From the NCBI GenBank assembly GCA_030141605.1, contig JAQGDQ010000129.1, positions 423,281 through 487,280 of the forward strand: a stretch of DNA of 64,000 bases. Direction: 5' to 3'. This DNA is from Tubiluchus corallicola (Eukaryota > Priapulida > Priapulimorpha > Priapulimorphida > Tubiluchidae). The position numbers and the translations under genes are program-made. The number at the start of each line of letters is the position of its first letter. Position 1 is the stretch's first letter. The notes beneath the pieces are model-generated. The model searched no databases, had not been told where the DNA came from, and saw only the letters and a list, made by a program, of their open reading frames with translations. Of the stretch, positions 1-53,294 are shown one piece after another.

Positions 1-960
1 GTGGTCACGTAAGCCAGGTGTTAAAACTGATCATTAGCATTGATGAGTTTTCTAATGCCTTCTATTCATGCCGCCTACAACGAAACTTGACTTGCAAACA
101 GGTAAAAACAGTTTTATGGGATATAACCATGTAGCTAATTAAATAAAGCTTCACACACCTGGTGAGACTGACCCGCCTGAAAATGTCTTTACAGATAGAC
201 TCTAGAAAATAAAGCTTCTGGCTGCAAGATATCTCAAAATATCAAGATAGATCTTGAAATTATTATGCACAGAAATTATTATAACTTATTTTCAGCACAC
301 ATGGTGCTTCCAGAAGATAAACGAGTGTTAGAAGGAAAACAATGTTTAGTAAGTAATAATTCTCTAAATAATTTTGCGTGAATTGAAAAACAATTGCTGC
401 ACATATTTTTATTTAATTAAACCTCTCTTATTAAACCGTTTGAATGTAAGCATAACATTAAAACATCAATACATGATTTGATTCACCAAGGTGTATCTAT
501 GTCTCTGTGAAAGGTCAAGTCAGAATCTACAAACTGGCCGTATGACCAACAGATCTCATCACTCATCAGAGGTGTGAAGATGACATGCCGGCATTCAGTA
601 TAATCGGCGAGCTCAAAGACATTCTAATTAGTGGAGCATTAACACTCAGTTGTCTCTACAAGACTGGACACAAGTACGCTTTACAGTCGGAGATGCAACT
701 GCAAAGGGTGGACCAGACCAGGTGAGAACAGCATTGGAACAACCTGTATAGCTTTAAACACCTGTGCAAAAACCACGGGTAAACACTGAACACTCAGTTG
801 TCACAGTAAATGCTGAACAGTCCAGTTTTATTATACTGTTAATCACCTGATGTATGGAGTTCTTTTAGTGGTACACTTTTCATTAGATTGCGTCACGTGA
901 ACAGAAGCTAAAGGCCTATTCACATTTATGCTGTATATATTTATTTAAAGTATGTGGGAC

Positions 961-1083
961 AGAAAAATGAGAGAAAAGGGAAGAGAGAGATGTAGGGAGA
1001 GATAGATGGAAGATAAAGAGGAAGATAGAGAGTTAATGAGAAACAACGAGAGAAAAGGAGGAAAAGAGGGTAGAGCGGGGGAC
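961..1083. repeat. Purine-rich (GA) low-complexity tract
   Basis: About 120 bases are almost entirely A and G on the plus strand, with many GAGA and GGAA runs. It is simple-sequence DNA; no coding potential is visible. Confidence 0.8.
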
Positions 1084-1903
1084 ATGAAGAGGAAATAGCA
1101 GAAAACAATTAAGTTTTACTTTCATGATGTTAGAAGCCAATAAAAATTAAATTAAATTTAAATTGCCCTATACGTTTGATTCACAACTATAGCTTCTGGC
1201 CTGTCTGGAGGACAGAACTGTAGGAGTAATTGCACACGTATCTGCAAAGTGAATAGGATAGTTTTGATGGAATGTATTTATACTTTCCCAAACTATGTTT
1301 GTGCATTAGATACGTGCTTTAACTAAATAGCATGATAATTAAGACAGAGTATTCTTTATTCGGTGCTGATCATTAGGCTGCAGAAATAACTGACCATAGC
1401 ACCGTGATATTTTGGTACTAAAAAAATGTATGATGCTAAACCATTTCCTTAAAAACATGTAAAAAAACATGAAACAGTAATTCTGGGTTCAAATAACTCT
1501 GACTAACAGCTTCAATCTACACAAAATTGTGTTATACAGAAGATCTTGATGGGCCACTCCAGGAACGTTGCAGCCACAGTTAAATCTACCTTTATGGAAT
1601 ATAAAATGCTCTTCAGGAGACTATATTTGTGCATAAGATAGACTATTTATTTGTAAACAACTGAAACTCTATTACTCCGCGAGTAAAACTACTTACAGCA
1701 AGGACCAGTAAGCCTTATATAGTTTTCTAATTTGCAAAATCAAATTGATTCCAAAACAAATTACTTCTATTTGTTGTACACTGTAAAATACATGTAAACA
1801 GTTTTTGAATGTTTGTGTTTGAATTAAATGACAAGAGAACAAAATTTTTCTTGAAATCTTTTGTTACTTATGAATTCTTGGTCAAGTTAAATTTCTTGCT
1901 CAC

Positions 1904-1984
1904 GAAATTTAAATTCTCGGCAATTTAAAATATGTGCCGCATAATTTTTATATTATATTTTAAATTGCCGAGAATTTAAATTTC
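1904..1984. repeat. Perfect 30-bp inverted repeat (hairpin)
   Basis: The arm at 1904-1933 is the exact reverse complement of 1955-1984, with a 21-base spacer. The arms are AT-rich but include a CTCGGC core, so a match of this length is not explained by AT composition alone. It could be the core of a foldback element or a cruciform-forming site. Confidence 0.85.
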
Positions 1985-2315
1985 CCAGTTGCATGTCTTT
2001 CAAACAGGTAACAGTAACTTTGTGTGGAAAGTTTTTTGGGACACATTATAATTCCGTTTCTTCTCCTGAAGTGACGCATAAAACCCACATTTTTTGTCTT
2101 TTAGACCTTAACACAGTAATGGTACGAGTACGGTAAGCAGCATTGTAGTCACAGTATTGTGGAACCCAACAGTAGTGTTGCAAATTAATAAAATGCTGAT
2201 GACGGGTCATGAATGTTTATGCAGTAGCAGGTAGTCAAGATCGTTAACATTCTCACAATAAAAATTTCAATATTTTAATAGTTATTTTCATTTTAATTTC
2301 ATTTTTTCTATATCT

Positions 2316-2590
2316 AAATTGATTTGATTGATTGAATATCTTTATTGACATAAACATATGATAATAACAATGTAATAATTCATGTGTTAATTAATACTGT
2401 AAAATGTTATTAAAGCTGTTTCCAGCCCACTTGGGCTTAATAGTTATCTAAATAGTTATCTAAAACTATATCTGTAATTGCAATGTGTATATTATAACTA
2501 ATACTACCAGGCTGAAGTTTCGTTGCTTTAGGCTGACAGCACTAATCAGGCGCAATAACTTTTCCAGATCTAATTCACTGTTAGGTAAAT
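2316..2590 (-). mobile_element. Probable 3' tail of a non-LTR retrotransposon
   Basis: Read on the minus strand, the segment ends in CAATAAAG followed by a short run of ATTCAATCAATCAAATC-type tandem repeats. This is the usual shape of a CR1/L2-like LINE 3' end (polyadenylation-like motif plus short tandem tail). No reverse transcriptase is left nearby. The upstream limit is a guess. Confidence 0.4.
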
Positions 2591-3154
2591 GTTAAAAATT
2601 ATCACGAGACGAAATATATCAAATTCACTGCATAGGTCCGTACTAAATGTTAAAAATTATTATGAGACCTAATTTGTAGTTCCTGACTAAAAATACAATA
2701 AGATTTTATTATTAACAGAAGTGATATGACATTAATAAAAGCTTGCAAAGTCAAAAACAATATTCAATCAAGCAAACATGTTTATGTTATTTTGTCAACA
2801 AATAATTTTATTATGTACCACTAAAATTTTGACTTTTGTACAGAATATTTACAAAAATTCATGGATTCATTACAGCATATTAATCGTACTTGCTAACACT
2901 GGAAATAGCAAGCAATAGCTCTACCAGTTGAACAAAGAAACACATGAAACACGTCATTTTTTTACATGAATAAAACAGGACATTTTTCAAAAGTGGCCAG
3001 TACGTTTTAAAAAATGTGCTTTTAACTCAGTTTCAAACTGATACCATACCACTGCATGCGTGATGAAGCAGCTTAGCACAATTTGGAATTTGTTCAAACT
3101 TTTTGTATCCAAATTTTCTTACACAGGTCCAATAGTCAGTGCTGAAAACAAATG

Positions 3155-6100
3155 CTACCGAAACTCATAGATCGGCACACTATGCTCAGCAACATGTTGA
3201 AGTGACAAGGACTGATACCTACAAAAACAGAAATTCTTGATAATTCTTACAATGCAGCTGAACTCAGAAATGAAGGCTCAGAAATCAAAAACAGAAACAA
3301 AATATTATTAACACCTAATGTAATAACATAACGTGTAAACTTTTCAATCGCTAAATACTACGGAAGTGTAATAGAGCTATTGAAGAAAAAATTTGAACCA
3401 AAAAGTGTTATAGTAAAATGAAAAGTCATTATCACGGAATAAAAAAATCATTGTACAACAAATGCTGCAACCGCTTCAATGCTATTTTGGTTTTCTCTAT
3501 GGTATAGTTTTAATCTGCTTATAATTTGTTTTAATGTTCTGTTGTTAATGATAATCATTAGTACATGAGCTAGATGTGTCAAAATTTTTTGTTATTAAAT
3601 CCGAGTTTAAAATACACCTGTACAAGTTCATTTCAATCACAATTGATGTAAAACATATTGGTCTATCGCTTTGCCCCTGCTGTAACGTAAGCTCGCTCAG
3701 CAGTATTCAGGACAACAGCTCACGTTGAACAACAACTGTCTAAGCTAAACTAAACTAAACTAAACAACATGACAGTCACAACTAATGTCTAATCAACAGA
3801 CAAACTGATTGCACAAATATGCAGAGCAGTAGCTATTTTTAAATGAATTTAACACTTCAAGTAGCCAAAAAATGACTTTTCAATTTAAAGAGAATGTAGA
3901 GACGAAGTTTCAAACCACTATAAAATACAGAGACATAAGTATAATAAAAAAACTAAGCCAGTTAGCTTTGCTTTACAATAAATGAGCAACAAAAATATTA
4001 AGTCTCTCTTGCCTTTAAACATGCGAACATCAAGCCTGCGATGTATGACTTCTTAACTCATTATGTAATAGAAAATGAGTCAGACAGTACACAAGGTTAG
4101 AGATCGATAGATGCAAAATACACACTAAATGAGCTGTTAGTGAATTGTTTGTCTGACTATGCAAGTCAAGGACTCTGAAGAAGTAGCCACGAGAAGCTGT
4201 CAAAGAAATGACAATGAGCATCTGGAAACCCGTACGAAATCACTGCACTATCACTGTTGTAATATTAACTACATTAGTGAGTCTAACATGAAAAATGCCA
4301 GGCAGAGTGCAACGACCCAGTTATTTTGGGTGAGTAAATCCACGGGGTCAAAAAGTGGTACCCTAACTGAATTCGATCATTTGTAACACCATGAAGGTTT
4401 GTTAGGCATGAAGTCAGACATTCTAACTCTCCCAATTGGGAAATTCCCAGTTTTAATAATAGCCTCCGTTTCTCCCAATTTTTAAATATTTCTCCTGATT
4501 TTTCATTAATTGTTACTACGCTGTAAACATTATACAAAATGAGATCTCAGTGAATATTCCCTATTTCTGCCCTTCTACCCTGATAGACAACGGGAAAGAA
4601 ATTGTCCAAGAATGCAGCAGGTAGAATATGTTAACTGATGTTTAATTTGGTGGATGTCATTGCGACTACTTGAGCTCCATCACTGGCAATGAGTTAACTT
4701 TGTCAATTTTCAGCACATGGCGAGATAATACTGGATAATGATAACAAACAGATAGTCGTTGACCACTGCAACATACAACTGTTTGACTTTATGATTTGAG
4801 CACAACCTAATAATTAATTATATGAAACTAACTATAACTCATATTTCCTTTTATTTTTAAAAAAATTACTTTAAATTGCTATCCGTTTCGATATTTCATC
4901 AGTAGGCGCTGCCATACTTAGTCTGCATACACATAACAACATCTTACGTGTAGGGGCGCGCGCTTGAATATACTGATAAGACATGTGTCCAATTCATCTT
5001 GCAACCAATTGCCAAAGCTGAATGTAGTCGTAAGTTGAAGACAGCCTCTATATCTACTGCTGCTGCTGTCATCATTGTCATTATTACTCTTACTGTCTCT
5101 TATTACAATATATAAGAAATGAAATAATGATTATGAAGATTTACCATTCTGAATTCCTATGATAGTAATAGCCTTCAATCAGGCCCTTTGACTTCTCAAA
5201 ACAAATATAATAGAAGCCAGCAAATGAAGCCCCATTTATGTCTTTAATTGTGTGATCTGGAACCAGGAAATGCTCCTGCAATGAATATACAAGCAAACTG
5301 CTTTAGAAAAACTGTCAGCAATTGAAAAACGTTAATTCAATTTGTTTTATTTTTAATGTAATATTTATAGTCACTTTGCATAGTTAACTCAAAGTCACTT
5401 TTCACTAGTTACAGTACAAAAATAGTGGTATTAAGCTTGTACATATAAATCAAAATAAACTCTATGTTTTAAAAGAATTAAACCGAAGTAAATGAACTTT
5501 CAGAGTTTTCCTAAAAATGGGTGGACAATTTCTAATATTCTAATAAATTCCAATGTGAACCAGCCAAGAGTGGAAATCCACGATCGGCAAAAATCTCAAC
5601 CAGCAAAAATGCATGAACTGCTGCAGAAATTGCAGTAGAACTGCTAGCCATCGCATTTTGACAATAATGTTTTATGTGCAGTCTTTCTGATGTTTATTTT
5701 GATGTAAAGGTTACTAACAAACTCATAACATGAAGACAAAAAAAATGCTGCCGTCACGTCAATAAAACTGCTGTTTACAATTCAAATTTCGAAAATCATT
5801 CAAAATTTCCTTAGTGAAATTTTCAATTGATATTATATAAGGTTTGAAAAAGCAAGGTTACAGTTATATTAGCTTTAGAGTAGTTAGTGCAGCTACAAGC
5901 AGTTACTTATTTATCTTAGTTACCAGTATTTAAAATTTATACAAACTGCATAAATTTTTATAATGTTTATCAAGACCAATTATAAATTGTACAGTATGAA
6001 GCATCACGCTATTGCTCAAGATTATACACTTGGACAAATTAAGAGAATCATGGTAATATCATAACTACGATATAGGCTAATATTGTTTTAGTCATACATC

Positions 6101-9100
6101 TCAAAAGTGTAATGAATTACAGAAAGTGCATTACTTGTACAAACTAAACAACACTCAGTTTTATATTACCTTCCATCTCATAAAAACAACATCCGTATGT
6201 CGTAAATCTTCGTAGTTAAAATCATCAGAGTTAAAATTCTTTGCATATTGATAAAACTGGTTAAACTTTCCCTGTAACATAATAAGCATTAGTCATTACA
6301 TGTTTGACATATTATTACCCATTTAGTATAATAGTATAGATCATTATACAATACAATATCAAAGGCACTAACTTTAATTGACTTTTAAAGTAAGAATGTT
6401 AGTGGACAGTCGTACAGGTACTGTCACAAAAACGATATGGACATCAAAAAAGCAGCACATCCAGCTAAAGTGCTATGCTCCAAGAACTGCTCTCAATCCA
6501 ACAGAAAAGAAAGAAAACTAGAAAATATGTGAAGTCTTTCTGCAATAGTTCAGCAAATTGTTAAAATACTCCCTATAAAACTTAGAGACTTCCGTATCTG
6601 GTATCTGCAGTCATACATCATTCTTCATGACGATATATTAGGCAATATTACAGTTTCTAAACACTATTGAGAATGTTAAATTTGGAAAGAGAATCACAGG
6701 CCATATACTCGCTCTCTGTGCCACACAAATTTGCTTAAATTGCTTTTCCCATTATCATGCCAACTGTACAGTAAGTAAAGTGTGTAAGTAAAAATAATTA
6801 AAGAACTAAATTTCTTGTATTTTGTTTCAATTCTGTCTCATGAAACTAAAAAATATCACAGCAGGTCTTCCATTAGAACATGGATTGACATAAACAAGGC
6901 AAAAAACACCTGAATACAATTTGTTACAAGTACTGATGACAATAGGATATGTTCATAATAATATTTTGCTTGCCTTACCCAGTGTTTTTTGTCCACATCT
7001 TCATCCGCATCCCACTTTCGTGTTAAAAATGGATATTTCTTGCTAATTATCTCTCCATCAAAAAATGTGGTAAGAGTAGGATACTCATCTGTCAACCCCT
7101 TAATTTTTAGATATCCGCATAGATATGAATTCTCTTCATCAACATGCTAAAATATGAAAATTGAGCAAAATTTCACAATCGTTCTTTATGTATTTATTTA
7201 TTTACATTATGACCAATTTATAAACTGCAAATTATGCATGCATACATACGATCCAATGATGCTGAATATCAATAAAATACTTTTAAGATGTAAATCAGGT
7301 AGTCAAAATACAAAATTTCTAGCATTAAGAAAATCTGGTAAATAAAGTGTTTCATACATAAAAATAAATCCATTAAGAACTACACTATAACTGGAATCGG
7401 GACACTCAATAGATGTGCAAACCAATGCCTTCATGTGAAGTCATTATGGGCAAAAATTTACTATTCTGTCACGTTTGACCTTGATCTCTTACCTACAAAA
7501 TCGTAAAGCAATGGGTTTCCAGTCCACTAGGTCTTGCCTTGACCAAACCCTGTGCAAAGTTTGGTGATTATAGTTTCAACTGTATTGATTTTATTGCGTG
7601 GACAGTCATATGCGACTAAACACTGTCTCACACTCAACAGCATGCACAGACCAATGACTTTGACAGCAATGCTGTCAAGAATGTCGACTCTGGTTGTGTT
7701 ACCTTTGGCTGTAATGTGGAAAAGGAAGACTTACACTAAACCAAAAAGCAACTAGTCCTTTTGGCAAAGATCAGTAGCTGGTCTCATAGGTTAAACTGTG
7801 AAGGAAGGCAACAATGACAAGTGGCTAAAAGGTGCCACTACAACCGAGTCAGCGGCAGTCCGTCTGACTCTGTCGCAAGTCAATTTCACAACCCATCTTG
7901 CACATCTCATTCCACTTGTGCCACAAAGAATAGTATTGAAATCATAGCATGAGGTTCACTTCCTAGCAAATTGATATTCATCTTGAACAAATCCGTGCTA
8001 TTGGCATTCTTTCCACTAACTGCTACTCCAAGTAATATCTTGGAACATTAACATCACCACCACATGCAGGAGTAACATTGCGAGGAACAAGAATTCTCGT
8101 ACATGAGAAAAAGTTGATGTCGTCTGCAACATTCTTGAAATGCAAAAGCCCACAAAAAGAGTACACTTGCACATTTAAAAGTGTTAGCATTGCACTCATA
8201 ACAAAAATACTCCAAAACCCAAATTAATTTTTTCATTTACCTGTATGTGTATGACAGTATGATTATATTTTTGTCTTAAATTGATATGGCATCTGGAGTT
8301 ATTACATTCCAGTATTGTAAAACTTGAGTGCCACCTCATGTTTAAATCCATTTTTCACCAATGGTTTCAACATAAACCTGTTATTATTGATGACTATGCC
8401 AAAGACATTTGCCAATGTGTTGTCAAATCATGCACATCTTTTTATTGCACTTTTTAAAGTTTTTACGTGAAACTGTATTTTCTGTGCTCATTACCAATAA
8501 AGTGAGACTGAAACTGGCAAATACTACTCAATATTCTAAATGCTGCTTCTTAACTTATGTGCTGCAAGTTGTGAAGTTCAAGTTTTTGCAGTCTCTCATA
8601 GTATACCTACTCCTAATTCCTTCAATGCAACACAAATTTAAAAGCTCTTCTTTTGTCATCCCTGTCAATGTAGAATCTAGTAACAGTTAAAGACTTGAAG
8701 ATGAAACGCAAATTCGACGACTGGTCTCACATGACTGTGACTATGATATTGTTTTCACACATAAAAGTAAAACACAGTTATAACAGTAATATTGGGAATG
8801 AGCAAATTTAGGCTGTGTGAGCAAAGCAGGTCTCATATGTATTTATATAGAGGAGGCGATTACTCTTTTCGCTTTTCCATTGTAGTTCCTTCTAGGTGTC
8901 ACTGCTGAGTTATTTCCAAGAGCTTTTTGTCATATTTTTAGACACCGATGCAGTGACGGCGGTACTGGTCAGATTACAATACAATGCGAGTTACCAAGGC
9001 GTTACTTGTGCTAATTAACACATTGATAACATTACACATTTTACACTGTATGGCGCGGAGCGTACCACTAGCCGAAGTAGGACACTTCCATTAAAGTGCA

Positions 9101-9986
9101 AGTGCTAAATTTGCGGAAAAGCGGTGTCGTACATGGGCAGCCCAAGTAAGGCACTGGCGATTCCTGTCGAGAATCAAGAATTATGACATAATAAAACATA
9201 AATTTAAATTTGTTTTAGAAAAAACTAATGATGGATAGTCCTTGACAATTCATAAATGTATTTTTACAATAATGTCAACATTATTATTAGCTCCATTAAT
9301 ATCATCATAACATTAAACTAAGTATCTAATGCTTTAAAGAGAAAAACTATGTATAGCACATAGCTCGCTAGCCCGTTTACTTAGTAGAAAACAATTACTT
9401 GTCCAAGAGGTAGTGAAACAGACCACATGTCTGTGAAGCGAGACAAAATAAAAAATGATATACATTACGCAAATGTTGGCATCGCCTAAAAAGCGCGCTT
9501 ATTTCACTTCAAAAAGATTAATATCGAAGCCAAATTTAATATTGGCTGTTCTATTAGCTCTGAATAAGATTCTTTTATTTTATCAGATGTATAATAAATT
9601 ATTCAACGTGCACTGACGTTTTCAATTATAATATTATTAAATAAACAAGGACAACGGACGCTGCCTACTTGGGCTAGCCCATGTACGCCAACTGTCCTAT
9701 TTCGACTAGTGTCCTACTCCGCCTCCAACAACACTATAGGTTTAATAAGTAAGCATAACCGAAAAAGTTATTGTTATTTTCGTATAATTATGCTGTCACA
9801 TTCACAGTGTTAAAATACACGTATTCCTACCTGAAGCAGCACCTCCACGTCATAGCAGTTTCCTTTACTTTTCTGATTACCTTGAAATCTGGAACCATTG
9901 TATAACAAAGTTTCCGTTACTCCTGGTTGTTTTGAATGTGCGGGCGCAGGCGGCTCAATTTTAAAACTACAATTTCTAACAGGCAT
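3155..9986 (-). CDS. GID4: GID4, substrate receptor of the CTLH/GID E3 ubiquitin ligase
   Basis: The spliced product is the Vid24/GID4 beta-barrel protein that recruits substrates with N-terminal proline-type degrons to the CTLH/GID ubiquitin ligase. Coding exons (minus strand, 5' to 3'): 9986-9831, 7146-6979, 6271-6170, 5275-5145, 3218-3155. All boundaries are GT-AG, the frame is unbroken and the total is 621 bp (206 aa). Seen motifs include [15 protein letters not shown] (exon 1), [20 protein letters not shown] (exon 2), [20 protein letters not shown] and [15 protein letters not shown] (exons 4-5), ending in APIYEFR-like VPIYEFR. They match animal GID4 nearly residue for residue. The start is the first ATG of a short MPVR N-terminus; longer N-termini are known in vertebrates and an upstream exon cannot be excluded. 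Intron 1 carries a TIR element. Confidence 0.95.
9051..9726. mobile_element. Non-autonomous TIR element, copy 1 of the TAGCCCAAGTAGGAC family
   Basis: This is a reversed copy of the elements near 23987 and 53295. The left end reads GGCGCGGAG...ACTAGCCGAAGTAGGACAC and the right end is its imperfect inverse (GTCCTACTCCGCC). Internal blocks are shared with the other copies in inverse orientation, for example TTATTTCACTTC, AGACAAAATAAAAAATGATA and CTTTTATTTTATCAGATGTATAATAAATT. No coding capacity is visible. It lies in GID4 intron 1, about 100 bp from exon 1. The exact ends and target duplication are unclear. Confidence 0.75.
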
Positions 9987-17700: not shown

Positions 17701-20700
17701 GTACATTTTTTCTTAATCTTTTATTTTTTACTGAAAATACACTCTTAACAAATTTAACACTCTTTCACAGTGATTTGTGACACAGTGGCATTTTGTGAAC
17801 AAGATCATTTACAGACCAATAGATGAAAATTTTCAGCCTCTGGTGATTGACAATCTTGTTCAAATGCTGTGCAACTATAATGCTACATGTAATGTGTGTT
17901 GTGTTGAAGTAAAAATAAACTTGAACTTGAACTTGACCATTTCATTAAACAGCAATGTTCTATTGTGTTTATAAAAGTTTTTGTTAGCCAACCACATTAG
18001 AAAACTACACAAAAACATATCAGTTCCCAATAATAAACCAATGCATGATATTTTTATGCAGGACAGTTGAAAAAACTACAAACTTACACAACAGCCATTT
18101 TAAACATCATAATATGAATATAAAAAGCATTATAGAAACATATGTATAGGTCCAAACATCTTTAAAACAAAAGCATCCAAAAGTTCCAAAATTTGCATGA
18201 TTTTTTATCAGATAACAAAAACAAACGGTTGGTATGATTTGGTTATGGCATCAACAATCCAAACAAATCCACCCAAACAAAAAGCATATAAATGAATAAT
18301 TCTACCTATAAAATTGACAATAATAAGTACTCACCCAAATTTTCTGCACCACTTCTTTATGCTTTTGCTCAGTGGTCCGCACATAGTGTGTATAGCTAAT
18401 GCCAGCATGATCGAAAAGGTTCTAAAAGTAAAATATTTTATACTCACACAAACCATATATTGGAAGGTTGTCGACAAATTACATAATGCACATCAAGCCA
18501 TTGCAAATTCTGACAGGCAATGTTTATTTTCTGACAATTAATGGTTTTTGTTTTCCAGCAGCATCAAATTTCATCACTTTTGTGTTTTGCTTTTATCAAA
18601 CCTGCCATTTGAACGAAAAGACAGGATACTGGGTGACCCTTTGGTCCCTCTCTGGTCCTAATCCATAATTACATTTATTTAACTTGAAACAACAATATTG
18701 CTGCAAATAAGACTGGAGAAAATAAAATGTTCCGTTTTATGTTCTATGTTTAAATAACATTTAGCAAAATAAATGCTGTTGGAGGGTGTCAATATCAAAC
18801 TCTATGACTAGGTTTATTGTCTTTGTATATTGTGTTATATTATTGTGTATTGCTTCATATCGTATTATATTGTATTGTACTGCATTGTATTCATCAATAA
18901 ACTTATTAATATGAAAACACATCCTTCAAATACTTGTGATTTCAATACTAAATGATATCAAACTGACTCAAAACTACAACCTAACCTTAAAGTATGTGAA
19001 GTAAAATTAGAACAAATTACAAGTTAGTTATAAAGCATCGCTTATGAATTATTACTAAACTTTAAATGCTGCTGAAATATTGTGACAATATCCTTCAGGT
19101 TGCTCGTTAGCTAAGGCAGCTGCTTGCTGAACCTAGAAAAAAGTAAAAATATCAATCAAAAGAAATTTATTTAAATTACTAAAAGAATTGATACACAGAC
19201 AGAAACAAAGATGTATAACAAATTCCTAGCTCAAATGTTTAACTTTAAACATAATAAACCAAGATTTAACAATTTTTGGGGCCAGAAAGCTTTCATGCCT
19301 TACCACTAGTGCACATAAATGTATTACCATGGTGCATTATCAAACACTCGTGATTATCACATACAATATTACAGGAACTTAAAATACAAATAGGTAACAA
19401 CAATAACAGTGTACACTTATATGCCAACAGATAAAAGCAGTCCATTCACGGAATTGGTCATTGGTCTTTAAGCAGGCTGGAAGTGTTTTCGCTGTTCTCC
19501 AGCAATTATTGTTGCGTAATGTTTTTAAGCAACGAACAATAAACGTCTGCCCAACATTTTGTTTTCTAGCCTCGCCGGTCAACTTTGCATACCACTAGCA
19601 AGCATTTTTGAAATTTCTTTTCAAACACATGCCCTGCCTAGTCATTGGTCGTGTGCCAACAACGCCCCAGTATTTAAGAAAGGTGACCATGCAGACCCCC
19701 TTAATTATCTTCCCATTAACTTGCGTAACTTGCAAGGTGATGGAAATTTGTATTAAAGGCGAACTGTTAGATTATCTGTTATTACATAATTTAATCTCTA
19801 AATCTCAACATAATTTTATGAAAAACGGGTCTATATGAACACGGTTACTTGATTGTGTTAATGATTGGTGTAAAAGTGATAATAAAGGTTCGCAATTAGA
19901 TGTGCTGTATGTTGATTATGCAAAGGCCTTTGATCCTTTGATAGCATTGCTCATTCAAAGCTTTTAACCAAATTCCAGTCTTATGGTGTTTCTGGTAATC
20001 TTTTTGCATGGATCCGGGCATTTTTAAGTAATCGTACCCAAAGAGTTCTCGTAGGTCAAGATTTTTCTCAATATAGCCGTTATTTCTATTATTTCTGTTA
20101 TTTCCCAATCTGTTATTTCTGGAACACCTCAAAGCAGTGTACTTAAACCAATTTTTTTGTTTATTATATTCATTAACTTTGTACCACAAGAATTAGCTGC
20201 TATTACTTGTAGGCTATATGTTGACAATCTGATATTGTATGCCTCTGTTAACGACAACAATTCAAATGCTATTGAAACCTCGTCTGTTTGGTGTGCACAT
20301 TAGCAGCTTTCTATATCTGCTCATAATTGCGCTATGTTCCACTTGGAACGCGGTAAACCTCAATTACAATATATCTTAAATGGAGTTACTTTGCCTGCTA
20401 AAAATTAATATAAAGATCTAGGAATACCTTTCTGTTCAAACTTGTTTTCTAAATATGTTAAAGACCAAGTTGCCAAAGCCTTTTCACTGTTTCTCCATGA
20501 AGAACAAAAATACCCTCATGGCTGCTTACAAAGCCTATGTTATGCCACTACTTAAATATTGTACACCAGTGTGGTCTCCGCATCATATGCAGGACATTGA
20601 TGCTAAAGAGAGAGTTCAGCGACATTTTACATGCAGATTATTTGCCCATTGTCAACTTGGTGTTTTTGACTACGTGGACAGATTGCTTATTTTAGATTCA

Positions 20701-23337
20701 CAACCACTCAAAGTCAGAAGGATAATTTTTGATCTTAAGAAGGTTTATAAAATATGCCATAAATTAGTAGATTCGTCATTTGATGATTTCTTTTGTTATG
20801 CTCCTACCCTAAATTTGCGTGGTCACAATAGCAAATTGTTCAAACATTATTCTAGATTAGGTGTATACAAATATTTGTTCGCAAATAGAGTAGTCTGGAA
20901 TGATCTTAATTATGACATAATTAATACATCAAACATTGCCATTTTCAATAGCAGACTAACAAGCTGCAATTTTTAAAGCTACTGCCATTTTAATAATTTT
21001 ACGTAAGCTATTTTTTCTTTATTGTATGTAGTGTATCCCCATTTTAAGTTTCTTTTAAGGTTTTTAGGTTTTAAGTTTTTTTATTTATTGATGAAATTTT
21101 TACTGCTAATGTATTTGATTATAACTGTGATTGTAAATGTATTGCAAATTAGTTTATATTATATTATATGGCTAGCATAAGTGCTATGTGCCTGCTGTCA
21201 TTTTTCTTATAAAAATGTATTTTACAAAAGTAAAAAAAAAGTAAAAAATTCTTGCTGCAAACCAATATCTAGCACTCATTAACTTTTATATAACACAACC
21301 TGAATCAAACTGAAATAGACCGGAATAATTCTGAACTCAAGAATAATCCTCTAAAATGAAATACTGTTCAAATCGGCATATTCGTATATGCAAACATCGT
21401 ACAGGAATTAGACAGAAACAGTATAGCAGAGAAGTCCAACAGCAGCAGTGTTTCCAGTGATCACTACTGCATTTACTAAAAAGGTTAGGCACAATATAAT
21501 TATGATACCCAAGAACATATAATCAAGCAAGGCCAATAGTTACCTTTAAGCCATGCTCGTCAGTACCAGTAGAAAACAAAGTGTCATCACAAAGAAAGCG
21601 GTGCCATCTGTGGGCTGCATCAGCAATTACAGCTGAATACAGGTGACCAATGTGTGGAGCTAGAAAAAAGTGAAAAAGGGAAAAAATGTCAGCCACCAAA
21701 ACTAAATCCTGTAAATAAACAATATGTAAGAGCAATGTTTTAGGACTCTTATACTCTGTAAGTCGTATACTGCCCTCACACATGAATTATATCCCTTTTG
21801 TTGGGTTTACAATTACAGTAGTCGCCGCTTAATAGACTCACTTTGGGACCGATGTGTTTTGACTCAATTAACCAACTGAACCGTTTAACTGATTGGTATA
21901 GTATTACAGGTATAGAAGTATGAGTCATCAGCTTACTATGCACTACAACGGTTTTTAATGAATTTTAGAAACGAACTAGTCCCTTAATTCGTTTGTGCAG
22001 TTAAAAATTAGAAAAAGTATTTTAAAATATTAATTTATATAAATGAATTAGCAATAAGTTAAAAAGTATACTTTTCTAAATCACAGACTTTTCTAAGTCT
22101 GTTTATTTGCAAAAATTACAAAAATTCCTTCAACGTCGGCTACTTCATTTTTTCCTGAACAAGTTGGCCCACAAAGTCCTCCTAATTATAGAAACGTTGA
22201 AAATCTGTTGTTGTGCATGACTAAAACAGTTCTGAATCGTCTGTTCTTATTTGTTGTACGATGTTTACTCTTGTAAGTTACACTGGCTGATTACTGTACC
22301 TGCATGTTTGACTGTTAACTCATAAAGCCCGAAAGCGTGATTTGCAACTAGAACATCAAAAGCAAACTGCTAGGCAACTGATTAAATGTTTAGCTTCCAG
22401 AAATTCTTTGAGTAATGAGGTTAATTGCAGTGGGCGAGCGGATAACAGTTTCAAAGCAAAACCGCTATTAGCGCATGATAAACGTACCTGTTTACAAACA
22501 AAACGGTACTTAATATGATTGTTTCTAGATATATAATGCACAAAAGGGAAGTAAAGATGACATAAAAGTACGAAAAACTGTTTGGTACATACAAATGCCT
22601 TATTTTAAGTATTGGAAAGGAAGGTATTAAGTAAGGAAAAATATTGAGTCAATTAAGTGAAGTTATTTGAGTCAATTGCTGATAGTTTTTATGTATATTT
22701 GAATAGAAGCAGGCTGTTCCGGGCGGTTTTGAGACAATTGCGATTGAGTCTATTAACCGTGAGTCTATTAAGTGGCGACTACTGTATATCAATGATAACA
22801 GCAAGCATTTTGTGAATGAACAAAACCTTCTAATCTATCATCCACAAACTACAATATACTCTCCATTATTTATTGTACATCTGCTCAGCAAATCAACTAT
22901 TGGTCAGCAGAGGCAACAAAAGATGCACATAATTAAATACCTCAGTAAACATACTTAGAAAGACATTACTGGTTCAGAGTGGCAAAGGTGTAAGTAGCTG
23001 AAATCCACATAAATGCAATATTAGAACTACATCATCTTAAGTGTAAAAGTGGCTTGCAACAAATAATTCTTTCACACAATAATGCAGAAAGATCAGATTG
23101 TAACAGTATCAGTTTTAAATTATTACTATCATAAAGGTGAAATTAATTCCCTGTAAGAGCCTTACCTGCATTTACATAAAAAATTGGCGTTGTTATGAAG
23201 AACTTTTTGTTAGTAGAAGAGGTGCATGTTGTTGTACTTGCAGCAGCAAATGTAAACTGGCAGACATTATGGCATCCAACTAAGCAACGTCTAGATGTTA
23301 TTCCAACCAAGGTTACGAAATTAAAACAGCATGTCAT
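11795..23337 (-). CDS. MARS2: MARS2, mitochondrial methionyl-tRNA synthetase
   Basis: This class I aminoacyl-tRNA synthetase charges mitochondrial tRNA-Met. Coding exons (minus, 5' to 3'): 23337-23166, 21659-21544, 19132-19061, 18421-18335, 16675-16547, 16233-16125, 15866-15736, 14779-14570, 14228-14117, 13190-12999, 12168-11795. They total 1704 bp, 567 aa (human about 593). The first 44 residues contain Arg and hydroxylated residues but few acids, fitting a mitochondrial presequence. The catalytic domain shows [16 protein letters not shown] (HIGH at 60-63), [50 protein letters not shown] and KMSKS (342-346). KMSKS is split between exons 8 and 9. The anticodon-binding region follows ([32 protein letters not shown]). 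The start chosen is the first ATG in the open frame before the conserved core. Intron 10 requires a GC donor. Introns 1 and 2 hold mobile elements. Confidence 0.95.
13326..13440. repeat. Foldback repeat (about 40-bp arms)
   Basis: Arms 13326-13364 and 13401-13440 are reverse complements apart from two mismatches and one indel, around a 36-base loop. The motif ACAACACAA / TTGTGTTGT sits in the middle of each arm. The structure lies in MARS2 intron 9. It may be a short foldback MITE. Confidence 0.75.
15490..15562. repeat. Short tandem duplication (30-bp period)
   Basis: The string CTATTCTGTAGCT occurs twice, 30 bp apart, each time followed by a GCAGAGCTTCAA or GTGAGCTTCAA block. A third decayed start (ATTATTCGTAG) follows. 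It lies in MARS2 intron 7. Confidence 0.55.
17879..17936 (+). mobile_element. LINE/SINE-like 3' tail
   Basis: On the plus strand the sequence runs GAAGTAAAAATAAAC followed by three TTGAAC-type hexamer repeats. This is the usual 3' end of non-LTR elements that finish in a short tandem repeat. It lies in MARS2 intron 4. No protein-coding part was recognised upstream, so this is a weak call. Confidence 0.35.
19562..21240 (+). pseudogene. Decayed non-LTR retrotransposon reverse transcriptase (CR1/jockey-like)
   Basis: Broken frames give recognisable reverse-transcriptase blocks in order: [20 protein letters not shown] (19654 on), a frameshifted [12 protein letters not shown] (about 19900-19935), [20 protein letters not shown] (about 19980-20040), a degenerate [10 protein letters not shown], and [10 protein letters not shown], where the usual YADD motif is altered to YVDN. 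A last intact stretch at 20455-20976 covers the RT C-terminal region ([23 protein letters not shown]). Frameshifts and in-frame stops mean it cannot make a full enzyme. An A-rich end at about 21230-21245 may be the 3' tail. It sits in MARS2 intron 2, antisense to the gene. Confidence 0.85.
21816..22784. mobile_element. Non-autonomous TIR element with TA flanks (pogo/Tigger-like)
   Basis: The ends are CAGTAGTCGCCGCTTAATAG... and its inverse, matching at 25 of 26 positions through GACTCAC. TA dinucleotides flank both sides (21814-21815 and 22785-22786). CAGT-type termini with a TA target duplication are typical of Tc1/mariner pogo-Tigger elements. The 969-bp interior shows no transposase frame. 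It lies in MARS2 intron 1. Confidence 0.85.
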
Positions 23338-25053
23338 GGTGTCACCAATGCACACACGTAGCCAGCTTTGTAAAGTTGGCTTCTTTGGCTTCAACAATCA
23401 GCATCAGTGCGTTACTTTTATAGTCGTAGTTAAGCCATTATACATGGTTAACAATGCGCTATTAATATATCAAATTGTGAAAGACTGGACTTTTACAAGA
23501 TGTTATCCGTCACAAAAGCATAAAAATTTTTTTTTACACAATCAAATAATTTAATACTGTATAAATATTATAACATCGCATGTATACTAATAAAACTAAT
23601 ACAGTACACTTGTAAATTTCTTAATGGCCGTAAGATTAACAAGTAACCTTTGCACTTCAGATGATTATCGGATTAACGCACGAATCATTCAGAGTCTCCA
23701 ATAGTTCGAGGTTTTAGTTCTTTGCGCATTGACCAGCTTACAGGGAATATCAACCAGTGCGCTGAAATGCGACGTAGCCAGTTTAAAAAATTAACAATGA
23801 AACGAGCTAAACATAAACGAACAGTTTATACTACAATCCGCAAACTTACTATACAATTCAAGCGCACGCGAATTTCACGAAAACGATTTACAACAATATG
23901 GGGTATCACCGATAGAAGGAAACCGCAGGAAATAGAGATGACGCCTCTTGCCGCACATGGACAGAATGAAAAGAGTTGTTCATATTGGGCGCCGAGTAAT
24001 CCATTAGCCGAAGTAGGACAATTAGCGTATATGGGCTAGCCCAAGTAGGACGCGTCGTACACGGACTAGCCCAAGTAGGACGTGTCATACATGGGCTGCC
24101 CAAGTGGGACACTAGAGATAGGTCGCGAATTGAGTTGTTAAGCGTACTAGCACCGTCCGTTAAAAACGTCAATGCACGTTGAATTTATTATACATCTGAT
24201 GAAATAAAAGAATTTTATTCTGAGCTGGTTGAACAGACAATATTAAATTTGGCTTCGATATTAATGTTGTTGAAGTGAAATAAACCCACTTTTTAGGAGA
24301 TTTCAACATTTGTTTAAGGTATATCATTCTTTATTTTGTCTCGCTTTACAGGCGGGTGATCCGTTTCACTACTTTTTCGACAAATAATTGTTTTCTCCTA
24401 AGTAAACGTTCTAGCGACCTATGTGTCCTCCCTGGGCTTTCGAGCCATGTACAACAGTACTCTACATGTTACAATACTATTGATATTATTAAAACCTTTG
24501 TCTTTGCTTTTTCTAAAAAGTTAAAAATTACTTTATCGTGTTGTGAAGGCTAGCAGCATCTGTCTCATTTTTAAACTTGCAATTATTTCTGTAATAACTG
24601 TGTGCATAGTTTCTGTCTTTAAAACATTAGGTATTTAGTTTAATGTTATGATGATTTTAATGAAGCTAATAATACTGATGATACTATTGTAAAAATACAT
24701 TAATTTTGTAAATTGTCATCCATCATTATTATAAAGTTACTTTTTCTTTAAAAAAATCAATTTTATGTTATATTGTCATCATAATTCTCGATTCTTGACG
24801 AAAATCGCTAGTGCCCTACTTGTGCTGCCCATGTACGGCACAGCTTTTCTGCAAATTTAGCACATGCGTTTTACCGGAAGTGTCCTACTTGGGCTAGTGG
24901 ATAACTCGGCGCCCTACAGTTCAAACTCGAATCACTACGCTTAGATGAAAATTTTGTAGCCAGCATTTTCTGTAAAGAAATCTCATTGTATCACTTTAAG
25001 CAGTTTTTGTACAACGTGCAGAAATCACATAGATTCAATTTGATTTCGACTTG
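23338..25053. promoter_or_regulatory. Divergent MARS2/GLRX3 promoter interval
   Basis: The two start codons face away from each other, 1716 bp apart, so both 5' UTRs and promoters must lie here unless more distant exons exist. More than half of the interval is a TIR element (about 23987-24914). Only about 140 bp separate that element from the GLRX3 ATG. No TATA box or other core motif can be assigned with confidence. Confidence 0.5.
23987..24914. mobile_element. Non-autonomous TIR element, copy 2 of the TAGCCCAAGTAGGAC family
   Basis: The left end GGGCGCCGAGTAATCCATTA...AGCCGAAGTAGGACA and the right end form imperfect inverted repeats of about 34 bp. Behind the left end, TAGCCCAAGTAGGACG occurs twice and CTGCCCAAGTGGGAC once; inverted forms sit near the right end. 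Such clustered subterminal repeats are usually transposase-binding sites. The interior is noncoding. It lies between the MARS2 and GLRX3 starts. A clear target-site duplication was not found, and a few terminal bases (TGTA before GGGC) may belong to the element. Confidence 0.8.
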
Positions 25054-26034
25054 ATGGCTGCCACAGTAGAAACTGTAGAGAAGTTTGATCAGCTGCTAAA
25101 AGATGAAAGTAATTCATTGCATGTCGTTCATTTCAGCGCGGCGTGGACACCACAATGCAAACAAATGGATGATGTCATTTCTGAGCTGGCAAAGGATTTA
25201 TCCTTGTCAACGATTAAATTCGTGAAACTGGAAGCAGAAGATGTACCAGAGTTGTCTATCAGATATAAAGTTGAAGCAGTGCCCACTTTCATATTTTTAA
25301 AATCTGGACAACAAGTCGATCGTATAGATGGTGCACATGCATCAGAACTGACCAAAAAGGCGAAAGCTTTGGCTTCCGGTTCTTACCTAACAACTTCTAA
25401 ACCAAATTTACCAGCCACTGAGGATATTAATGTGCGGATAAAAAAATTACTCAACATGGCTCCGTGTATGCTGTTTATGAAAGGCACGGTTGAGGAGCCA
25501 CGATGTGGCTTTAGCAGACAGATGGTGTCACTGCTTAATGAACAGAAGATCAATTACAGTACCTTTAACATTCTTGCTGATGAAGAAATTCGTCAAGGCC
25601 TGAAGCTGTATTCAAACTGGCCGACGTATCCACAGCTGTATATCAATGGTGAGCTAATTGGTGGCCTTGACATTGTTAAGGAAATGATTGCTAATGGTGA
25701 TTTAGAGAGTATTGTACCAAAGAAACAAGATCTTAATGAAAGATTAAAGGAACTAATAAATGGTTCCACCGTAATGGTTTTCATGAAAGGAAAACCTGAT
25801 GAGCCACGCTGTGGATTCAGCCGTACACTCATTGACTTGCTGAATTCCGCAAATGTTGATTACAAGACATTTGATATTCTCCAAGATGAAGAAGTCCGTC
25901 AGGGATTGAAAATCTTTAGCGAGTGGCCAACTTATCCACAAGTGTACGTAAATGGCGAACTATTAGGTGGTTTAGACTTTATTAAGGAGTTGAAGCAATC
26001 TGAATTAGAATCAATTCTTAAACCGAACATTTAA
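25054..26034 (+). CDS. GLRX3: GLRX3 (PICOT), monothiol multidomain glutaredoxin
   Basis: GLRX3 binds [2Fe-2S] clusters through its CGFS glutaredoxin domains, usually with BOLA2, and serves cytosolic iron-sulfur trafficking. The 326-aa product has an N-terminal thioredoxin-like domain (about 1-108; WTPQC at 31-35, a single-cysteine form of the active site) and two monothiol glutaredoxin domains. These lie at about 125-222 (PRCGFS, Cys151) and 226-326 (PRCGFS, Cys253), each with a WPTYPQ motif and a GG(L)D motif. Length is close to the human 335 aa. The start is the ATG at 25054, giving [11 protein letters not shown]. The whole gene is one exon, whereas vertebrate GLRX3 is split into many. It is divergent from MARS2 and convergent with U2SURP. 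Confidence 0.97.
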
Positions 26035-44408: not shown

Positions 44409-47400
44409 ATGGACGTTGTAAACAGTGATTTTCCTGTTTTCGGACTTTTACCCAAAAAAGAAACGACTGCGTTGAGTTTTATTAATAAATATCCAGAATA
44501 CGATGGACGAGGCGTTACAATCGCTGTATTAGACACTGGTGTTGACCCAGCGGCAGAAGGTCTCCAGGTAAATGCGTAATCAAATTCATGATACAGAAGG
44601 TGCATTGTGAGCCAGCCTCTTATGTCACAGAGTAGATTGTCAAAATGGCCACCACTTGATGCATATGATTTTTTTTCCATTAGTCTGGGGAAGCGACTAT
44701 TAGGTCTACTAAGTACTATACATTAGTAGTACTTTCACAGGGCCGAGAGAAAAGTGTTTTTCGTCAATTTCACTTCATGATTATTGCACAAACTTGAAGT
44801 TTGGGTTGTTCACTGTTTATTGCATATGTATATATATATATATATATATATCAGTTTTTTATCACCTTCACCCTTCTCCACACACCACAAGGGAATGGCA
44901 CCACCTACCAGAGTCAACAGTCCAGCTTGGCACTCTCAGCCAGTACAGGAGTATCATACGATCGATCTAAACTGGATTAAGGTACGCCACCACATATTGA
45001 ATTCAGTGTAGGGTGCAGCGCCCCTACCTTGAGGAGCTTGGGGATATTTCTACCCGTTTTATTATACACCACTGTAAACTATTTTTGTTTAGTACACGAA
45101 GAAGAAAAATATATATATATATATATATATGTATGTATATATACACAACACAATCACATCTATAGTACATTTGCAATGTTTACAAATGTAATTAGCTACA
45201 AATTTACAATACATGATGTGCAAAATTATACAACAGAAAAAACAATAAAGAGAAAAACAACAATGACTATAATTTTAGACATTATAAACTTTTAAAGTTG
45301 GGCGTCGGGACAGGAAGAGTTCGCGAATGAGGTTCAGGATTTGAACAAAGTTCAGGAACAAGGTTCAGGTGTTGGAACTATCACGCCCCCAATGCCGAAT
45401 GCCCTAGTCATATTTGTTTTAAAGTGAAAATTTGACGAAAATTTACTGTTTCATCTTCTCTGTATGTGATACAAAAAATTTAATAAATGTATTTCTTTTA
45501 CATTAATTCTTAAATTCAAGATATTTTTTACCACAAATGTCTACTGCAGATTTTTTTCTTCTATTTTCACCTGTTTTTAATGCATTTAGTCGTAAGCTTA
45601 TTGTAATAACAGTCTTTATCTGTATTGTTGTCTATTTTCTGTTAAATTAAAAGGTGACAAGTGATGGTCGTCCAAAAATTATAGATCTCATAGACACAAC
45701 TGGTTCAGGCGATATAGATACATCCACGGTTGTTGAAGCTAAAGATGGTGTAATAGTGGGACTGACTGGAAGGAATTTGAAAATTCCTCAGTTGTGGAAC
45801 AACCCTAGTGGGAAATATCATATTGGTGTCAAAAATGCTTTTGAATTGTTTCCGAAAAACTTGCGCGAAAGACTGCAAAAACAGTATCGTGAAAAAGAGT
45901 GGGACCCTCAGCACCGGCTTGCACTTGCCGAGTCATATAAACGACTGGAAAATTTTGAAAGCATACATAATGACAAAAGTCTGACATTTGAACAAAAATT
46001 GATGAAAGAGGAGTTTCAAGCACAAATTGATACCTTAAACAATCTTGATAAAAAGCATGCATATAGTGGGTCTGTGTATGACTGTGTGGTATTTCACGAT
46101 GGTAACACTTGGAGGGCTTGTGTGGATATTAGTGAAGCTGGCAACCTGGAAAATTGTACTGTGCTTGCAAGTTACAGAGAAGAGAGGCAATTTGCAACAT
46201 TCACTAGCACTGATTTAATGAACTACAGTGTTAACATCTACGATGACGGAAACTTGTTAGAAATCGTCGCTAACTGTGGTTCACATGGAACTCATGTTGC
46301 TTGCATTGCAGCTGGATTTTTTAAAGATGAACCAGAAAGGAATGGCATTGCTCCTGGTGCTCAAATTATAGGTGTTAAAATAGGAGACTCGAGGCTAGGA
46401 TCAATGGAGACTGGGACAAGTCTGGTTCGTGCAATGATAAAGGTATTAGTATAAATATTTACTACATTCAGGAATAAGTTTTTTGCAACTTTCATGAATT
46501 TGGGATATAGTGACTGCTTAGCTTGATCTGCTTTGTGTTTTTCATTCTCCTATTTATTTATTCTCTTATTTGGCATGTATAACAATGAGCAAATGTACAA
46601 CATTTTTGAGTAGTCAGCATTGGTTAATTGGTCAATAAGCCTTCTGGTTTAAGTGCTAATACTGTGCCATAAGTTTGCCTTTCTACAAAAACTAAATATA
46701 AAATATATTTTGCTGAATTTGACAATCTGTTGATAACTGTTTTTTCGACTACCTGATTTATTGTGATGCATCTGCAGACATTATGTATACCAGTTCGGGA
46801 ATATCCATATATCAACCCAATCAAGACACTTTAGGATGTATTAAGCGACATTGCTGCTAGCCAGATAATATACTGTCAATTTAAATTGAATGAATATGTT
46901 TTTATGCATGTTGCATGTGATGCTCCAACTTTTGATAGCAGGAGGTTTCTTTTGTGCCAATTTTTAAACTTTTCATACACATGTGTCATTCAACTTCTAG
47001 TTCTTAGCTGCAGTGCAATAAGAGACTGATGAACCACAAAAATTGTTGTTTTTGCAGTCGTTGTTATTTTTGTTGTCATTGCTGCTGCCCGTGATGGTGG
47101 TGGCAGTGATGATAAATAGAAATTACTGTGTTTCATAATTATAATGTGAATTTATTTCAGTATTAAATTAGTATTTTAGCATTCATTTTAAGGTTTATCA
47201 AGAAAAGAAAAAACTAAAACATCAGTAGTAGTTTAAATTTTCTTTTACTTTTGTATTCATTTTTGCAGGTAATAGAGTATAAATGTGACTTAGTTAACTT
47301 CAGTTATGGTGAAACAGCTTGCTGGGAGAACTCCGGACGAATCTGTGATATTATTAGTCAAGCAGTAACGAAGCATGGCATTATATTTGTGTCAAGTGCA

Positions 47401-50049
47401 GGAAATAGCGGACCAGCACTTTCTACCACTGGAACACCAGGTGCAACAACTAGCGCCGTAATTGGCGTTGGAGCATACGTTTCACCAGAAATGATGGCAG
47501 CAGAATACTCGCTAAGAGAGAGGCTACCTGGCAACCATTATACGTGGTCTTCTCGGGGCCCAGCACAGGATGGTCACTTAGGAGTTAGCATATCAGCGCC
47601 AGGCGCAGCTATTACATCTGTGCCTAACTGGACTTTGCGGGGTTCTCAACTAATGAATGGTACATCAATGAGTTCGCCTAATGCATGCGGAGGGATAGCA
47701 TTGTTGTTGTCTGCACTCAAATTTAATCAGATTGCTTACTCTCCATTTTCTGTACGTAGAGCTATTGAAAATACAGCTCAAGTATTAGATGGCATAGAAG
47801 TTTTTGCTCAAGGTAATGGCCTATTACAAGTAGAAAAAGCTCATAATCATTTGATGGAATATAAGTCTTGCCAAGAAAATGATGTAAGTTTTACAATAAG
47901 CATAGGTGGAAAGCGTGGCATTTATCTTCGTGAACCTGCCAACTTGGCAAAACCTGTTGAGATGTCTGTTAGTGTGGAGCCAGTTTTCTTCGAGCCAAAT
48001 GTTATGGAAAATAAAGATAAAGTGTTGTTTAACATGAGATTCAGCTTGTTGTGTAACGCTTCCTGGGTTGCCGCTCCTTCTCATTTGGATTTAATGAATA
48101 TGTCCAGAACATTTACCATCAAAATAAACCCTGTTGGACTGCAGATTGGTGTTCATTATACAGAGATTCAAGCTTATGACGTGAATGGACCCAACAAGGG
48201 ACCATTGTTCAGAATTCCTGTCACAGTTGTTGTTCCTGAACAGGTACATGACACTTTTAATTTCCAACTGCATTTTCCACAAACATCTTTTACTGCAGGG
48301 CAAATAAGAAGGCATTTTGTTCAGGTGCCTGAAGGTGCGACTTGGGCTGTACTTCATTTTCACGTGCGCAGTGATGACTTGAATTCGCGCTTTGTGTTTC
48401 ATATTATGCAGTTGATTCCGCAGTGTACTCACAAGGCTTTAGAGTTCTATAAATTTGTCAACTTGTCTGAGCTAGGTGAAAGCACTCAAGCTTTCAAGGT
48501 TCTGGGTGGATGCACTATGGAGCTGTGTATCTCTAAATGGTGGGCAAGCATTGGATCAGTAGTAGTAGATTACAGTCTCACATTTCATGGCCTAGAGCCA
48601 AATTCTACAGAAATCACTATGCATGCAGCTTGTGGTATTACTCGAATTGATGTTGCATCACCATTAAAGCATGAAGAAATCAGTCCTACTATATCACTCA
48701 AGCATTACGTACAACCACTACGCCCCAATGAAGTCAAAATTCGTGCTTTAGGGCCTAGAGATGTTTTGCCTGAAGGTAAGCAGATATATGAATTAGTTCT
48801 CACGTATTCTTTTCATCAAGTTAAAACTTCTGAAGTTACCCCAGCTTGTCCAGTTCTATGTGATCTACTGTATGAATCTGAATATGAGGCACAGCTTTGG
48901 ATGATTTTTGATTGCAACAAGCATCTCGTAGCATCAGGCGATGCATTTCCAAATCAGTACTCAGTTAAGTTAGATAAAGGGGATTACATACTGAAGGTGC
49001 AAGTTCGACATGATAAAAAAGAATTACTTGACAAACTGAAAGATATGTCAATAGTGGTACAATATAAATTGGCCAATCCACTTTCGTTAGATATCTATTC
49101 AACTCGTACTAGTGCTATGGTTGGCGGAAAAAAAATGAACACTTTTAATTGCCCGCCTGGTGTTTTTATTCCCATATTTATAACACCTCTTGCCGAAGAA
49201 AAGGTGCCAAAAGGATGTGCTGCTGGAAACATGCTGACGGGTACCATTTCCTACGCTAAAGATGAATTAGGACGCAAAGCTTGTACCTACCCTTTCAGGT
49301 ACATAACAACAGACCATATAAAGAAAACTGTGACAAAAAGCAATAACCACAACAAATCTGAGAAAGACAAATCTAAAGAAGATGAATTCCGAGAAGCTGT
49401 TAGAGATTTTAAAATATCGTGGATTGCCAAGCTGGAAACTGATACTTTGTATAAGGAGCTTTGTGAATCTGAAGCAGCTGATCATCTTCCATTGCACATG
49501 GCATGGCTTACTACACTAGATAGAGAAGCTGGTAGAAAGTCGAGGTTGAAAGAAATCATAGATCAGGCTAAACTGGTCATTTCTAAGATCGACATTCAAG
49601 CATTGCTTTGTTATTATGGTTCGAAATCTGACAGTCGTTCTGATGCTACAATAGTCAAAGCCAACATGGACAAAGAAAAGGCCATCCTTATTGAAAGTCT
49701 GGCTCGTCTTGGCTCTGCTAAATTCGAATCGTTAGATTCAGTAGATGCAGCGGAAGTTGATCAGATTCAAGCTGTAACAGCAGAACTCAATGATATCATA
49801 TCTGAAATACTAAAATTTGCTGACTATAGTGATGCCAAGGTCATAGACTTTTCTGTAAATCATGCCATCATAAACCAGCATTATGGACGTGCCCTGAAAT
49901 TAGTTCTGAAACAATTGGAAGAAAAGCCTACAAAGGAGAATGAAGCAGTAGCAGTCAAACTGTATAGAAAATTAGGTTGGAACCACTGTGCTAAGTATTT
50001 CGATAACCTTGTGCTAGTCAAATATCCACCCAGCTACAGATTATTTTAA
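44409..50049 (+). CDS. TPP2: TPP2, tripeptidyl-peptidase 2
   Basis: TPP2 is a giant cytosolic subtilisin-type serine exopeptidase that removes N-terminal tripeptides from peptides released by the proteasome. Three coding exons join in frame with GT-AG introns: 44409-44567, 45654-46442, 47269-50049. They total 3729 bp, 1242 aa (human 1249). The S8 catalytic residues are all visible: Asp42 (AVLDTGVDP), His264 ([13 protein letters not shown]), oxyanion Asn362 (SSAGNSGP) and Ser449 ([14 protein letters not shown]). The long insert between Asp and His typical of TPP2 is present, as is the TPP2-type C-terminal half, including [34 protein letters not shown] and [10 protein letters not shown]. The start gives [19 protein letters not shown], matching the family N-terminus. 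The frame is also open upstream to an ATG at 44217 (64 more residues). It is divergent from U2SURP. Confidence 0.97.
44826..44851. repeat. (TA)n microsatellite
   Basis: An uninterrupted TA dinucleotide run in TPP2 intron 1. Confidence 0.9.
45107..45143. repeat. (AT)n microsatellite, second array
   Basis: A TA/AT run with GTATGTATATATAC at its end, about 260 bp after the first array and in the same TPP2 intron. Confidence 0.9.
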
Positions 50050-53269: not shown

Positions 53270-53294
53270 TGTGAAAAGATTTCAACGGAAAATC

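Follow-up and report, generated by a model that had tools for sequence, protein, structure and literature searches.

Among hAT elements, motifs in subterminal position are known. The termini of Ginger elements are TGTNR, as in Gypsy LTRs (PMC2836005), and Ginger2/TDD elements generate target-site duplications of 4 or 5 bp (PMC2836005; PMC10045372). Ginger2/TDD terminal inverted repeats (TIRs) are about 50-180 bp long (45-297 in the published table), and the target preference, which differs between Ginger1 and Ginger2, is the AT-rich RTATAY for Ginger2 (PMC2836005). Duplications of 5 bp are also attributed to hAT5 in PMC12730594, which refers to Repbase Reports 2007.

The window, i.e., the whole stretch of 64,000 nucleotides that was analyzed, contains an element that is probably a non-autonomous (MITE-like) DNA transposon lying between two genes, with a Ginger2/TDD-like transposase acting in trans as its best-fitting source. 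It represents an ordinary and probably undescribed mobile-element family of moderate copy number.

Structure of the window copy

The element occupies positions 23983-24918 on the plus strand and is a complete non-coding copy of 936 bp, as determined from its alignment to >40 genome copies, its ends, and its duplications. Perfect 5-bp GTTCA duplications border it on the left (23978-23982) and on the right (24919-24923). An earlier note on this DNA had set the borders at 23987-24914, which are indeed the limits of the paired TIR arms (23987-24023 and 24878-24914); comparison of ends among relatives, however, places the true borders 4 bp further out on each side. The arms measure 37 nt and are 89% complementary, close to the degenerate TIR of about 34 bp noted before. 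With the 4-bp outer terminus added, the T-end repeat spans 23983-24023 on the plus strand and pairs with the A-end repeat at 24878-24918 on the minus strand (TGTAGGGCGCCGAGTTATCCACTAGCC), the latter being supported by both arm pairing and the genome-wide end pattern.

The termini are TGTTGGGCGCC, here decayed to TATTGGGCGCC, and TGTAGGGCGCC, the TGTT terminus (decayed to TATTGGGCG) forming the left end and the TGTA terminus the right. The copy belongs to the subfamily with CGAGTAAYCC ends, is ~6.7% diverged from the family consensus, and lacks a long open frame of its own. Inside the 37-nt arms lie further inverted and direct copies of a short motif. Near the T-end, 4 copies of TAGCCSAAGTAGGAC form a subterminal array on the plus strand (24005-24110, offsets 23, 55, 85, and 114 from the end), each corresponding to half of an imperfect 28-bp palindrome, and motif search detects 2 inverted copies near the A-end on the minus strand (24813-24896, offsets 23 and 92).

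Two more copies are found in the window. The first (9047-9730, minus strand, 684 bp) is recognized by motif, ends, and a 4-bp ACAC duplication; the other (~53291-53974, plus strand) is recognized by motif and ends, has a decayed left end, and shows no clear duplication. Thus, three copies in 64 kb, as reported previously, are present, but they do not form a single subfamily: the A-ends of both additional copies are of the GGAGTACGCC type, which assigns them to a second subfamily, unlike the element at 23983-24918. Elsewhere in the window, positions 47251-50049 encode tripeptidyl peptidase II in an uninterrupted frame of 932 aa with five Pfam matches.

Family size and subfamilies

The genome search was performed on the species' own assembly (343.5 Mb, 2344 contigs), where DNA search yields dozens of near-full-length relatives with 77-86% identity. 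The search with the TIR that had been proposed earlier, carried out with a degenerate 27-base end pattern at <=2 mismatches, gives 348 forward and 356 reverse matches, i.e., 704 termini, compared with 0 for the reversed-pattern control. The end pattern of the second subfamily has 274 matches, which partly overlap those of the first pattern. A third subfamily, with TGTTGGGAGCCGAGTGGACC at both ends, has 309 matches, and since seventy of these are perfect, it is probably the youngest group as judged from its sequences. The genome thus holds several hundred non-coding copies, with redundant contigs inflating genome-wide counts.

Six identical copies (L015-L020) were considered as a recent burst and rejected, as their shared flanks indicate one insertion on redundant contigs. 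Six contigs (C1752, C1831, C1974, C2072, C2074, and C2107) share one locus with identical flanks, pointing either to redundancy in the assembly or to a large duplication of recent origin; C1787/C2264 and C1338/C1677 give the same picture.

Complete copies have one TGTAGGGCGC end and one TGTTGGGCGC end. The general form of the termini is TGTW...WACA, with TGTWGGGCGC at both ends, and 55 of 68 end pairs combine a T-end with an A-end, as defined by position 4; the two ends are therefore not equivalent. A consensus, which the earlier note had called for, was built from 44 first-subfamily copies and is 806 bp long. Copy lengths vary widely, from about 350 to 1000 bp, with the ends remaining constant, and the family TIR is 27-37 bp long. 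The features that make an element MITE-like are all found, namely inverted terminal repeats, a target duplication with an empty site, and many copies that have no transposase gene.

Target-site duplications and empty site

Target-site duplication, previously left to be defined, was assessed on 68 end pairs that remained after deduplication; the automatic search had mis-paired eight or nine of them. Exact 5-bp duplications are detected in 25 of the 68 pairs and exact 4-bp duplications in a minority of 11, compared with means of 0.5 and 0.4 in shuffled data, respectively (maxima 3); duplications of 6-9 bp are absent from all 68. At the third base outside the 5-bp duplication, read outward, 46 of 50 flanks have a pyrimidine and none has G, on both sides, and the target is weakly palindromic (AGTT-NTNAN-AACT).

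A third-subfamily copy at C1902:408708-409447 sits inside a hAT element, and other copies of that hAT provide the empty site. Three of them (L045, L046, and L048) read TATAATGGCGGAACTTAAC unbroken, and L037/L122 have a 740-bp copy between GCGG and GCGG, so that the comparison shows a clean insertion with a 4-bp duplication. L023, considered as a second empty site, was dropped owing to a deletion near the junction.

Such ends and duplications invite comparison with LTR retrotransposons, since TGT...ACA ends together with 4/5-bp duplications occur in Gypsy-type LTRs, and the copies might accordingly be solo LTRs (TG...CA ends, 4-6-bp duplications). This reading, however, is highly improbable: it does not account for the 27-37-bp inverted repeats with inverted subterminal arrays at both ends or for the range of lengths between constant ends, and among the copies listed no two on the same strand flank an internal region or gag-pol.

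Alternatively, an element of this kind might be moved by a hAT5-type transposase, which we regard as unlikely. The 5-bp duplications ascribed to hAT5 (PMC12730594) speak for it, as do the 115 hAT transposase matches in the genome and the binding of the hAT transposase Herves to sites at or near its own transposon ends (PMC3143072). A uniform hAT or hAT5 duplication, however, is difficult to reconcile with a mixture of 5 and 4 bp that lacks 8 bp and in which the 4-bp class makes up 30% of exact duplications. Furthermore, the abundant hAT family has CAGKGGCGTCGTGC (CAGKGG) ends and an 8-bp duplication matching at 7/8 positions, and sits in a family copy as cargo, while family ends bound 0 of the best 30 of the 115 hAT matches, which were read with their flanks. 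Judged from these ends and junctions, the abundant hAT is excluded as the source for the copies examined. As for the nesting itself, L056 (572-1755) is a hAT-derived element with CAGKGGCGTCGTGC ends inside a family copy, and L037/L122 show the reverse arrangement; the hAT and the family were therefore active in overlapping periods.

Subterminal palindromes and their expansion

The earlier note had described a 15-16-bp motif in direct and inverted copies near each end, and counts agree with it: when <=3 mismatches are allowed, TAGCCCAAGTAGGAC is found 17 times in the window, compared with 0.81 expected from shuffles. Genome-wide, the exact motif with one base free has 744 matches and the control 1, which together with the termini bears out the earlier view of a TIR family whose subterminal repeats are clustered. 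Of the 28 positions in the unit GTCGTACATGGGCTAGCCCAAGTAGGAC, 24 agree with the reverse complement of the unit, and the 15-bp motif is consequently half of an imperfect palindrome. In the consensus, T-end motifs at offsets 23, 55, and 84 represent three copies, and across individual copies their number varies from 1 to 6, with 3 being the commonest and 4 found in the window copy. A-end motifs lie at offsets of 23 and about 92 across copies.

In two copies the array has expanded to well over 15 and about 96 units, from the 1-6 that ordinary copies have. The larger array, in a second-subfamily copy (C1636:25881-29353), consists of 95.7 tandem units of a 29-bp version. Seen at the level of the locus (L119, C1636:25850-29380), positions 695-3469 are a 29-bp minisatellite of 95.7 units with 93% matches, derived from the subterminal palindrome and placed between two family termini. 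A second, separate expansion is observed at C165:54941-55493, where exact motifs recur mostly every 30 bp and family termini lie at 54323 and 55576; this array has well over 15 units. With its clean palindromic array, expanded in two copies, the family offers a simple example of how transposon sites become minisatellite DNA. The broader proposal that the family is an orphan cut-and-paste group, characterized by asymmetric TGTA/TGTT ends, mixed 4/5-bp duplications, and expandable 28-bp palindromic transposase sites that seed minisatellites, seems improbable to us.

Search for an autonomous partner

All exact T-ends were paired with A-ends, and the inner side was read for about 50 unpaired T-ends and 10 second-subfamily A-ends. 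The autonomous copy with a transposase sought since the earlier note did not emerge: none of the about 70 copies read, including the longest pairs of 3.1, 3.5, and 4.8 kb, has a transposase between such ends. As far as a transposase in these copies could decide it, the earlier reluctance to place the elements in a known superfamily is justified. The unpaired T-ends and second-subfamily A-ends lead only to MITE-size or truncated copies, simple repeats, or other transposons.

Several candidates were rejected. At C167, a 7-kb pair proved to be an inverted duplication that contains tandem repeats but no transposase; the locus (L021, C167:7000-14800) has one family end per arm and a tandem array in which several frames are open (CEQKSTKRTVLFAQLT repeats). 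The hAT fragment in a 2-kb copy at C215 belongs to a nested hAT, which has CAGKGGCGTCGTGC ends and is flanked by a GCACCCGT/GTACCCGT duplication. The 3.1-4.8-kb pairs at C390, C1636, and C147 hold other repeats, the 29-bp minisatellite, and simple repeats, and a reverse-transcriptase-like frame with no Pfam match is also among their contents.

Among the integrase-core matches, the top group includes an IS481/IS3-type ORF of marine Bacteroidetes affinity, which has no family ends and was likewise rejected. Many further integrase-core (rve) matches exist, nearly all of them compared with the termini by coordinates only. The sole PF24764 integrase fragment has no family ends nearby; it is an integrase core fragment (L025, C1369:11893-12114, rva_4) beside microsatellites. 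The locus L124 (C1820:879350-880750) encodes an intact 371-aa IS481/IS3-type transposase with 65-67% identity to marine Bacteroidetes. The 975-kb contig on which it lies also contains a eukaryotic family copy, which would imply lateral transfer, a symbiont, or mis-assembly. A related fragment is present on C1658 (L123); matches on C1700, C1721, and C1830 score identically, and C31 has other strong matches.

These results bear on whether the family has the ends and 4/5-bp duplications of a superfamily with an undescribed transposase. Genome-wide pairing and the about 70 copies read yielded no transposase with family ends, and the literature search with termini and motif gave no transposon paper among the matches listed, which look like chance; both points agree with such an orphan group. 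We consider it quite unlikely all the same, as the termini and duplication length already fit a described group, and autonomous copies are often lost or unassembled.

Returning to the Ginger2/TDD-like source that we favor, the transposase would be supplied in trans and would bind the subterminal palindromes as a multimer. It may then pair the two element ends, and strand transfer would join the TGT...ACA ends to target DNA with a stagger of 4 or 5 bp, in the manner of retroviral-type integrases.

Neighboring genes

To the right of the element, the open frame at 25054-26034 (plus strand) encodes thioredoxin and glutaredoxin domains and corresponds to GLRX3, with its start at ~25054. To the left, a minus-strand exon within 21526-21786 matches methionyl-tRNA synthetase, with a further exon upstream and the start at ~23337; according to the earlier note and an apparent N-terminal exon, the gene is apparently MARS2 rather than MARS1. 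Open frames resembling a LINE-type reverse transcriptase, as judged by eye, lie near MARS2 at 19529-20973. The start codons are 1716 bp apart, and the element fills 936 bp of this gap (54.5%), ending 135 bp before the GLRX3 ATG, in line with the earlier statement that more than half of the upstream region shared by the divergent pair is taken up.

This position raises the possibility that GLRX3 and/or MARS2 use the window copy as a co-opted promoter or enhancer, the palindrome array providing putative host-protein sites. The small remainder upstream of GLRX3 and the share of the gap that is filled would be consistent with such a role, but we consider it very unlikely. The motif-bearing ends of the window copy are 7.3% diverged from consensus (16/218) and its interior 6.4% (35/546), and as this difference is not significant in what is a weak test (Fisher p=0.63), the array shows no sign of extra constraint. 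Taken over all copies, divergence amounts to 7.1% for the ends and 8.9% for the interior. Moreover, the motif array is family-wide and not specific to the MARS2/GLRX3 site. The suggestion that the motifs serve as protein-binding sites for the host genes is thus not supported, and use of the element by the neighboring genes appears, from these sequence comparisons, unsupported as well. The window copy would most simply be a neutral insertion that left 135 bp to the GLRX3 start codon, and an array beside MARS2/GLRX3 should not be read as a regulatory module from sequence alone.

Comparison with known systems

The exact ends, duplication length, target preference, and subfamilies allow the family to be masked and classified. 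A Ginger2/TDD-like, integrase-type source appears to be the best fit because the TGTNR termini and the 4/5-bp duplications match; Ginger2/TDD elements share with the family TGTNR...YNACA termini and 4- or 5-bp duplications, and non-autonomous derivatives are expected of them. Membership in Ginger2/TDD, however, is not claimed and the superfamily is regarded as unproven, since the TIR is shorter, the target is not RTATAY, and no transposase was found. In the family, a flush TIR of about 37 bp is followed by further inverted motifs, whereas most Ginger2 repeats are longer, and the target is AGTT-NTNAN-AACT instead of the Ginger2 sequence. The family also differs in its subterminal palindrome array, and no counterpart of the H2C2 zinc finger and DDE integrase-like transposase of Ginger2/TDD was found between the family's ends in the copies read.

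As for hAT5, the 5-bp duplications are shared, and subterminal motifs are found in hAT elements as well, but the 4-bp minority class sets the family apart, as do the CAGKGG ends, duplication of about 8 bp, and unrelated end sequences of the genome's own hAT. MITEs in general resemble the family in being short and non-coding, with a TIR, a target duplication, and hundreds of copies, whereas the family is somewhat long (about 700-980 bp) and has an expandable 29-30-bp array. Internal tandem units that seed satellite-like arrays are likewise described for the foldback transposon Tetris of Drosophila virilis, in the available part of PMC4079207. In comparison with Tetris as presented there, the family's unit is its subterminal palindrome, and two family termini enclose the largest arrays seen.
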